Positions 36,155 to 38,678 of a stretch of 38,678 nucleotides of DNA are shown here, in pieces (within the stretch, counting starts at the first letter, position 1; each line of letters starts with the position of its first letter). Position numbers and translations under genes: made by a program. The notes under the pieces were generated by a model. That model did not search any database, was not told the origin of the DNA, and saw only the letters and a list, made by a program, of their open reading frames with translations. The DNA comes from Thermoplasmata archaeon (GTDB taxonomy: Archaea; Thermoplasmatota; Thermoplasmata; Lutacidiplasmatales; UBA184). The stretch is from assembly GCA_021798195.1 (NCBI GenBank), contig JAJZYH010000018.1, forward strand, positions 1 through 38,678, written 5' to 3'.

Positions 36155-37129
36155 ATGCGGTTCCCGCGGAGCCTGGGGCTCTTGGGACTGTACGTGGGCG
36201 CCCAGCTGGTGGCCCTGGGCCTCGCCTTCCCCTTCATCCACCTGGGATACCAGACCACCGCGAACCCCGGTGCGGTCTCCAACGTGATCCCGTACCTGGT
36301 GATCATCGTAGTGGCTCCCCTGGGGATCCTGTTCCTTGCCGGACGGGCCCCCAGTAGCCTCTCGGTGCTGCGCTACCTCCTCCTGGGCGCCATCTGGTTC
36401 GCCCTCCTCTACACCCTCTACGGGGCGTTCAGCCTCTTCCTCCCGGCCCCCCTGGGGCTCACCACGGGATACACCCTGGACCCGGGTCTTTTGGCCGCGT
36501 TCCTCGTGGCGGACACCGCCACCCTCGCCCTGCTCATGGAGCCGCAATGGTACGTGGTGGATGGGGTGGGCTTCCTGGCCGCGGGGAGCCTCATCGCGCT
36601 CCTGGGGATCTCCCTGGGGATCCTGCCGGCGCTCATCCTGCTCGCCGCCCTCATGGTCTATGACGCCGTCGCCGTCTACGGGACCAAGCACATGCTGAGC
36701 CTCGCCGACGTGGTCACCGACATGAAGCTCCCCATCCTCATGGTGATGCCCGCCCGGGCCGGGTTCGACTATTCCTCGGTGAAATCGCTCAAGGAGCACC
36801 GGGAGTCGGTCCATGAGGCGCCGGGTTCCCGGGAGGCGACGTTCATGGGGCTGGGCGACGTGATCATTCCCGGCATCCTCGTGGTGAGCGCCTTCGTCTT
36901 CCTCCCGGCCCACCCGCTGGCCGCGGGGATCACCTCGAACCTGGGGGTCGCCCTCCTGAGCCTCGTGGGATCCCTCCTGGGATACGGGATCCTCATGGGG
37001 CTCGTGAGCCGGGGGAACCCCCAGGCGGGGCTTCCGTTCCTCAACGGAGGGGCCATCGTGGGATACGTCCTGTCCTACGTGGCCATCTACCACTCGTGGG
37101 GACTGGGCATCCCCTGGCCCCCTCTGTAG
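36155..37129 (+). CDS. Presenilin/signal-peptide-peptidase-like aspartyl protease
   Basis: 324 residues from ATG 36155. About nine membrane helices. The presenilin catalytic motifs are present: YD in MVYDAVAVYGTKHM near residue 170, GxGD in FMGLGDVIIPGIL near residue 230, and a PAL-equivalent GLPFLNGGAI near the last helix. The family cuts membrane proteins within the bilayer; archaeal members (PSH, for example MCMJR1) have this architecture. Natural substrates are unknown. It begins 12 bp after aIF2-beta, so cotranscription is likely. Confidence 0.9.
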   Translation: MRFPRSLGLLGLYVGAQLVALGLAFPFIHLGYQTTANPGAVSNVIPYLVIIVVAPLGILFLAGRAPSSLSVLRYLLLGAIWFALLYTLYGAFSLFLPAPLGLTTGYTLDPGLLAAFLVADTATLALLMEPQWYVVDGVGFLAAGSLIALLGISLGILPALILLAALMVYDAVAVYGTKHMLSLADVVTDMKLPILMVMPARAGFDYSSVKSLKEHRESVHEAPGSREATFMGLGDVIIPGILVVSAFVFLPAHPLAAGITSNLGVALLSLVGSLLGYGILMGLVSRGNPQAGLPFLNGGAIVGYVLSYVAIYHSWGLGIPWPPL

Positions 37130-37175
37130 AAGGGTCCACTTGTGCCGTCCTTCCCATTGCGCCTCAACAAGCAAT

Positions 37176-37721
37176 TCATCCGGGACCTCTGGAACTGCCT
37201 GGAGACTCAAGGATTTCCAAATGCTTCCCTCCCGAATTCAAATAACTTCGTAAACTTGAATTCGAGAGAAGCTCCCGGTCGGACGTGTACAGGGTCCTGC
37301 ATCCCCTACAGGCGAGCGCACCAGCAACGATGAGTGAATCTGCAGGTCCTACGTTCGCCCTTTCGCGAATACCCTTGGCCAGCTCGAGGAGATTTGCTCT
37401 ACGGTCTTGATTGCGCGCCCAGCAAACGACTGCCTTGCCCTGGGAAACCAGATCCCTGAGCCTCTGGAGGGGGTTCAGTGAGGATTCGCCTCTTGACCGG
37501 TGGCTTTCCGGCTCCGAGACGATTTCCATAAATGCCTCTCCTATCGAGATCATGGAGATTCCAACGGGTCGACTCTCCTCATTACTCAGGATCCGCTTCG
37601 CGCCCTTCACCAAGTCCTCATCTCTATCCCCGCCTAGAATCAGGGGAATGAGGTAGGACGTATCTATGTGGCAGCGGTGAGCCCGGGGTGGGTCTTGAGG
37701 AATGATCTGACCTCCGCCCAA
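37176..37721 (-). CDS. PIN-domain protein, probable toxin
   Basis: 181 residues from a TTG start at 37721, preceded at 5 bp by GGAG. PIN nuclease features: N-terminal HIDTSYLIPLILGG (first acidic ligand near residue 20), SMISIGEAFMEIVSE (Glu), ANVGPADSLIVAGALA (Asp), TLYTSDRELLSN (Asp) and a final LEILES strand. All four metal ligands are visible, so it may be an active RNase. It overlaps the upstream antitoxin-like gene by 58 bp, and no ATG or GTG lies between the PIN strand and that TTG. Composition is more AT-rich than that of the preceding genes, consistent with acquisition. VapC-type toxins cut tRNA or rRNA. Confidence 0.75.
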   Translation of the reverse strand: MGGGQIIPQDPPRAHRCHIDTSYLIPLILGGDRDEDLVKGAKRILSNEESRPVGISMISIGEAFMEIVSEPESHRSRGESSLNPLQRLRDLVSQGKAVVCWARNQDRRANLLELAKGIRERANVGPADSLIVAGALACRGCRTLYTSDRELLSNSSLRSYLNSGGKHLEILESPGSSRGPG

Positions 37722-38158
37722 GTGGGCTCCGAAAGGTGAGGCTTGATGGCTCGGGCCTGGCGGAGGGCAATTGGCATGCTGTGGGATTCCTTCCAAATGT
37801 CGAGAAGCGTAGTGAGCCCCTCAAGCAAAGGATCCTCATGATCAAGCGCATCCGCGATCACATCCAGAACGGTGCCCGGGACATCGGTAGCAACCCCCGC
37901 TGCTCGGATGCCGTGATCCTCCAGTTGGTAGTATGCCCGTGCCAACTCGGGTGAATAGGGTCCCATGTGGTAGATGTTGAAGGAGTAGCCCAGTGCGGGG
38001 GGATATCCGAGATGCTTCAGGAGATAGGCAGCCTTCTGGATGCGAAAGCGCCCCGGCTGCGTCCGCATCGTGAAAGGGTGACCGCAAACCTGGGCGACAC
38101 GATTGAGGGCCTTGGCCAACGGGATGAACTGTGCGGCGGCTCTATTATCGTCTGGCAT
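37664..38158 (-). CDS. Panacea/SocA (DUF4065)-like protein, probable antitoxin
   Basis: 164 residues from ATG 38158 (MPDDNRAAAQFIPLAKALNR). The central segment RFRIQKAAYLLKHLGYPPAL, followed by SFNIYHMGPYSPELARAYYQ, has the K/R-IQK..YL....G and W/Y-x-GPY-x-PEL pattern of the Panacea/SocA-like fold. Panacea domains neutralise many unrelated toxins. The gene lies upstream of and overlaps a PIN gene, the order expected for a type II toxin-antitoxin operon. The C-terminal 60 residues are helical and may contact the toxin. GTTATAC boxes 24 and 35 bp upstream act as candidate TATA elements. The assignment is from pattern only. Confidence 0.6.
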   Translation of the reverse strand: MPDDNRAAAQFIPLAKALNRVAQVCGHPFTMRTQPGRFRIQKAAYLLKHLGYPPALGYSFNIYHMGPYSPELARAYYQLEDHGIRAAGVATDVPGTVLDVIADALDHEDPLLEGLTTLLDIWKESHSMPIALRQARAIKPHLSEPTWAEVRSFLKTHPGLTAAT

Positions 38159-38174
38159 GAGGATTCTCGGATTT

Positions 38175-38261
38175 CAATGTATAACGAGCGTATAACCTGA
38201 ATCTATCTGACTTCATCCCCGTAAGATGGAATCTTACTTTGAGACCTCTCCTAATGGCGGG
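38175..38261. repeat. Tandem repeat, copy 1 (87 bp)
   Basis: Starts CAATGTATAACGAG and ends CTAATGGCGGG. It contains iterons GTATAAC at 38179-38185 and 38190-38196, spaced by 11 bp, and a perfect inverted repeat GTAAGAT-GGA-ATCTTAC at 38221-38237. On the minus strand the iterons read GTTATAC and serve as TATA-like boxes for the toxin-antitoxin operon. On the plus strand they could drive a short RNA that begins near the hairpin. Confidence 0.85.
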
Positions 38262-38347
38262 CAATGTATAACGAGTGTATAACTTGAATCTATCTAACCA
38301 TATCCCGTGGGATGCCATCTCATTCTGAGACCTTTTCTGATGGTGGG
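38262..38347. repeat. Tandem repeat, copy 2 (86 bp)
   Basis: Directly abuts copy 1. The left third is nearly identical, with iterons at 38266-38272 and 38277-38283. The right part diverges but keeps the layout and the GAGACC segment. The hairpin is GTGGGAT-GCC-ATCTCAT at 38307-38323. Compared with copy 1, one A-T pair becomes G-C by two changes and two other pairs become G-U, so pairing survives in plus-sense RNA only. Confidence 0.85.
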
Positions 38348-38434
38348 ACACCGTAGATGCGCGCTTCCGGTGGTTACCTCTCTGCGGTTTCCCCGGCTTC
38401 CATGGTCGTAACGACCACGCAACCCGACCGAAGG

Positions 38435-38442
38435 CTTTTATC
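38435..38442 (+). promoter_or_regulatory. TATA box of the deoxyhypusine synthase gene
   Basis: CTTTTATC is centred about 36 bp before ATG 38474. A CCGGGG-AA-CCCCGG palindrome (38447-38460) lies between it and the predicted start, and TGAGGAG (38463-38469) is a ribosome-binding match. Confidence 0.55.
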
Positions 38443-38473
38443 CATTCCGGGGAACCCCGGTGTGAGGAGCCCA

Positions 38474-38678
38474 ATGGCGAAGCGGCCGGTCCGGGACATC
38501 CGCGCACGGGACCTCACCACCCCCGATGGGATCCTGCGGGCGTACGACGCAGCCCAGGGCTTCTCGGCGAAGGAGGTGAGCCGGGCCGCCGACATCCTGG
38601 AGACGATGTTCCGCGACCGGGAGGGAACCGTCTTCCTGTCGTTCCCGGCCGACCTCGTCTCCACCGGCACGCGGGGGA
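38474..38678 (+). CDS. Deoxyhypusine synthase, N-terminal part (cut by window edge)
   Basis: The first 68 residues are visible, from ATG 38474 (MAKRPVRDIRARDLTTPDGI). LRAYDAAQGFSAKEVSRAAD followed by EGTVFLSFPADLVSTGTRG is the typical N-terminal signature of deoxyhypusine synthase, including the FLSFPA.LV.TG.RG strand of the NAD site. The enzyme transfers a butylamine group from spermidine (or a related polyamine) to a lysine of aIF5A, the first step of hypusine formation. The catalytic lysine lies beyond the window. Translation-related location (aIF2-beta is 2.5 kb upstream) fits. Confidence 0.9.
   Translation, partial: MAKRPVRDIRARDLTTPDGILRAYDAAQGFSAKEVSRAADILETMFRDREGTVFLSFPADLVSTGTRG

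Follow-up and report, generated by a model that had tools for sequence, protein, structure and literature searches.

A tandem repeat upstream of an archaeal panA-PIN toxin-antitoxin operon as a likely duplicated promoter/operator

The window analysed here, a stretch of 38,678 nucleotides, is the whole of contig C4 of a 73-contig assembly of a Thermoplasmata archaeon. From left to right, its terminal part carries an SPP/presenilin-like gene on the plus strand (36155-37129), a PIN-domain toxin gene and a panA-like antitoxin gene on the minus strand (37176-37703 and 37664-38158, respectively), a block of tandem repeats, and a plus-strand deoxyhypusine synthase gene whose ATG lies at 38474 and which is cut by the contig end. 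A TATA-like box, CTTTTATC, on the plus strand at 38435-38442 suggests that the latter gene is served by a separate promoter. The repeat block thus sits within a 1.3-kb insertion, containing the panA-like and PIN genes, between the SPP and deoxyhypusine synthase genes. In 24 of the 29 family relatives, the SPP gene is followed by the deoxyhypusine synthase gene within the examined flank, mostly within about 50 bp, and panA, PIN and the repeat are absent from between them. Closer relatives carry different, unrelated small genes in this gap, which identifies it as a variable slot (37130-38474; compare L028-L056), nearly closed in most relatives and occupied by unrelated small genes in others.

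The panA-like gene encodes a protein of 164 residues that is probably a relative of DarG's C-terminal domain (PADLOC DarG, 2.5e-7; NCBIfam DarG, 1.8e-6, which is below the cut-off); the Pfam library yielded no match. Its AlphaFold model has a pLDDT of 94.9, and the best fold match was to DarG (7yk3), with a probability of 0.85-0.87, a TM-score of about 0.5 and an E-value of 0.4. No recognisable DNA-binding domain was found in the antitoxin by Pfam search, in the AlphaFold model or among the structure matches, and no helix-turn-helix was seen. The PIN gene, which lies in the -1 frame relative to panA, scored just below the Pfam PIN cut-off (1.7e-4; 22.6 versus 23.6). The two genes are co-directional and overlapping, and this arrangement is kept in homologs. 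By gene arrangement, the pair qualifies as a type II toxin-antitoxin operon with the PIN (VapC-like) protein as the putative toxin, and the first-pass annotation had described these neighbours correctly in kind. Homologs of panA occur in 38 of the 400 class genomes sampled (about 10%); viral contigs contained no relatives, and a protein scan of genome contigs returned nothing. One genome, G195, holds four panA-like copies, three of which adjoin each other (G195:C32:21297-22707; L110, L113 and L115) while the fourth lies on G195:C8 (L103). Every copy is read with an internal TAG, which could be pyrrolysine, another stop read-through or decay.

Inside panA, an ATT in the PIN frame at 37701-37703 on the minus strand follows GGAGGT (37710-37715) at a distance of six bases. 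In 11 of 17 homologs from several archaeal families (beside our own, L060-L065, L069, L070, L078 and L086), an ATT stands at exactly this distance from GGAGGY or from a purine-rich stretch resembling it; in L071 the equivalent position, after GGAGGC, is an ATG. The exceptions are L009 (GTT), L068 (TTT), L072 and L073 (both ATC, where alternative starts are possible) and L067, which has a different arrangement. Thirteen or so codons beyond the ATT site, the panA stop codon TAG (region 37662-37670, minus strand) overlaps the PIN codon that precedes the first catalytic Asp, again in 11 of the 17 homologs, our own included. Most homologs with this overlap have no ATG, GTG or TTG within 13 codons upstream. 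The overlap is kept even though genes so rich in G+C are expected to use few NTA codons. Conserved panA residues (E-V, F) account for part of the motif, so that only the third-position A constitutes evidence at the nucleotide level: the ATT requires this A in panA codons that specify different amino acids, where A3 is only 5-32%, and the chance that nine or more of eleven homologs carry it is 5e-7 if the homologs are taken as independent, which they are not fully. A weak AUU inside panA is therefore the probable start of the PIN gene, and its weakness suggests that toxin synthesis may be kept below antitoxin synthesis. A phylum sample added no further homologs of the AUU group, and the papers searched offered nothing relevant on AUU initiation, whether in archaea or in toxin-antitoxin systems.

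Pairwise alignment of the block upstream of panA bore out the two tandem repeats of about 87 bp previously proposed for positions 38175-38347. Copy 1, proximal to panA, spans 38175-38261 (87 bp) and copy 2, distal to it, spans 38262-38347 (86 bp), giving a start-to-start distance of 87 bp. The copies differ by 17 substitutions in 86 aligned columns and by one 1-bp indel, or by about 20%; 14 of the 17 substitutions are transitions. The block is A+T-rich, with a G+C content of 42-44% against 67% for the window.

No further copy of the repeat was found in its own genome outside the block, so that it is not a dispersed element. Among 400 genomes of the class we found no relative; 16 other genomes gave short matches only (E-values of 0.003-0.09 per genome), which we discounted because such values are expected by chance when 400 genomes are searched. 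Searches for exact repeat patterns in GTDB and viral contigs, and blastn searches of plasmids and phages, returned none. These absences hold at the sensitivities used in each collection. These searches yielded no homologous sequence with which the covariation argument of the first-pass annotation could have been extended. Upstream regions of 15 other homologs were read; L069 contains a run of N and was left out of the repeat test, and none of the remaining 14 operons has upstream direct repeats above the shuffled level. Such systems therefore do not need the arrangement, and repeats conserved upstream of homologous operons, as would mark an autoregulatory operator, were not found. On these comparisons, the duplication arose locally in this lineage, and the system does not carry the repeat as a conserved element. 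The main rival to a functional reading is that the tandem duplication is neutral, one copy serving as the promoter and the other being a functionless relic. Its restriction to this genome within the collections searched, the 20% divergence of the copies and the lack of the repeat in all other homologous operons read speak for this, but the heptamers described below and their spacings have stayed unchanged while the rest diverged, a contrast for which the statistics are weak. We consider a relic less likely than not.

All four GTATAAC heptamers of the window fall inside the repeat block, starting at 38179 and 38190 in copy 1 and at 38266 and 38277 in copy 2. The two iterons per repeat, one helical turn apart, that had been noted earlier are thus real, with an identical spacing of 11 bp in both copies. 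A search with the heptamer-pair pattern allowing up to three mismatches matched only the repeat block within the window (0.07 chance matches expected), and elsewhere in the genome no site had fewer than two mismatches. One pair 11 bp apart (GTTTAAC), with two mismatches, lies beside a TATA-like stretch at G000:C44:36113-36130 (L059). It was not accepted as a relative because the genes on either side of it look, by eye, like a ribbon-helix-helix gene and an eIF5A gene.

On the operon strand the heptamers read GTTATAC, and the pairs occupy 38179-38196 (copy 1) and 38266-38283 (copy 2) on the minus strand. Relative to the panA ATG, the proximal boxes span -38 to -32 and -27 to -21. For other gene starts (25367, 38474 and 27570), the best TATA-like match is at -30 to -40, a comparison drawn only from gene starts of the window. 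In archaeal promoters, a TATA box at such a distance from the ATG gives a leaderless or short-leader transcript. The earlier designation of GTTATAC as TATA-like boxes of the minus-strand operon is accordingly plausible by position, but the sequence is not a strong archaeal TATA box. Between the copies, the four heptamers and their 11-bp spacings are identical and the remainder has diverged. The half of the repeat that contains the heptamers is the most conserved, with 2 substitutions in the first 34 columns versus 15 in the other 52 (Fisher p 0.012, for a split chosen post hoc); a split at 38 columns of the same alignment, its boundary likewise post hoc, gave p 0.063.

The less conserved part of each copy contains an inverted repeat, GTAAGAT-GGA-ATCTTAC at 38221-38237 in copy 1 and GTGGGAT-GCC-ATCTCAT at 38307-38323 in copy 2 (plus strand). 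These had been taken as hairpins of a plus-sense RNA under selection, and the stem changes are as then described: with G-U counted, all seven plus-strand pairs form in both copies, against five of seven on the minus strand of copy 2, and the four stem substitutions all preserve plus-strand pairing, one pair being altered on both sides. Twin small RNAs from the plus strand, or an RNA that takes part in controlling the toxin-antitoxin operon, could account for this pattern. All four stem differences are transitions, however, and half of the transitions in an A-U or G-C pair leave G-U, so that a compensatory-looking pattern arises easily. We simulated four transitions placed randomly among the 14 stem bases and scored cases in which seven pairs were kept with at least one double change. 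For the named strand, the observed pattern arose by chance in 12.6% of cases when copy 1 was the starting point and in 14.0% when copy 2 was; for either strand the figure was 16-23%. The hairpin was chosen after inspection, which makes the covariation argument weaker than these figures (0.13-0.23).

The hairpin by itself is unremarkable, since 4.9% of composition-matched shuffles of the 173-bp region also contain a perfect 7-bp stem (loop of 3-8) and 56 such stems are present in the whole window. Nor did folding energies of the full copies show any excess stability over shuffles: z was +0.33 and -0.40, and the full set over both copies and both strands (+0.33, -0.40, +0.72 and +1.56) stayed within the shuffled range. 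The predicted minimum-energy fold of the full plus-strand copies uses not the proposed stem but a small stem of the form UCUYA-nnn-UGAGA (UCUUA-CUU-UGAGA at 38232-38244 in copy 1; UCUCA-UUC-UGAGA at 38318-38330 in copy 2), which competes with the proposed hairpin for the same 3' arm. A 41-base excerpt of copy 1, folded by itself, does adopt the proposed stem, yet with a stability no better than that of shuffles. Rfam returned nothing above threshold for the repeat, the best match being snoR66 at 17.2 bits against a cut-off of 43. Selection for an RNA hairpin thus found no support, and covariation as a ground for a plus-strand RNA was rejected on the simulation and the comparison of folding with shuffles. 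With two copies to compare and no homologs found, we regard small RNAs of either kind as unlikely, and the more elaborate proposal of a plus-strand small RNA per repeat acting with panA-PIN, in a lineage-confined toxin-antitoxin system controlled by protein and RNA, as very improbable.

The inverted repeats could also be read as DNA, namely as operator palindromes for a dimeric regulator with the half-site GTRRGAT, the heptamers then being only TATA boxes. The half-sites GTAAGAT, GTAAGAT, GTGGGAT and ATGAGAT do have a common purine/pyrimidine pattern, but the inverted-repeat region is more diverged than the heptamer region, and we hold this arrangement to be quite unlikely.

Considering these readings together, we favour the block as a once-duplicated promoter/operator of the horizontally variable panA-PIN operon, an interpretation that we judge probable on the sequence evidence. 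It is preferred because the heptamers lie at the TATA position and the heptamer half is less diverged; the uniqueness of the heptamers and the travelling of the block with the insertion also count in its favour. Against it stand the lack of a recognisable DNA-binding domain in the antitoxin, the published argument against autoregulation by Panacea (PMC10440598), the 14 homologous operons without repeats and the modest quality of GTTATAC as a TATA box. Among the three options originally offered, the duplicated operator is therefore favoured over twin small RNAs or an RNA control component, for which the covariation is at chance level, and a link of the repeat to the toxin-antitoxin operon is plausible from its position. 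Under the promoter/operator interpretation, the proximal heptamer pair would define where the panA core promoter lies, and TBP would face competition from a protein bound across that pair. The distal copy would provide either another promoter or an additional platform for binding, and the small inverted repeats would be part of the same binding region, or functionless.

Duplicated or iterated operators occur before type II toxin-antitoxin operons. The present block, a candidate operator, resembles them in that its direct repeats lie at the presumed promoter and are separated by one helical turn; it differs in that the duplication is found in one genome only. To our knowledge, no described system of the PanAT/DarTG kind includes a repeat of this sort. 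As in Panacea-type (PanAT) and DarTG systems (PMC10440598; 7yk3), a small putative antitoxin, whose predicted fold may be that of the DarG C-terminal domain, is encoded in one operon with an adjacent putative toxin gene; unlike in those systems, the domain here stands alone, is paired with a PIN nuclease and shows no helix-turn-helix domain. The authors of the Panacea study argue that Panacea is itself unlikely to regulate transcription of its own operon (PMC10440598).

The comparison of the two copies illustrates how readily a convincing-looking compensatory change can emerge where transitions make up almost all of the differences. Locally, the finding is a modest one: an acquired toxin-antitoxin operon whose promoter region has probably been doubled. 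Greater use may come from the operon, as its apparent AUU toxin start is kept across several archaeal families and is directly testable.
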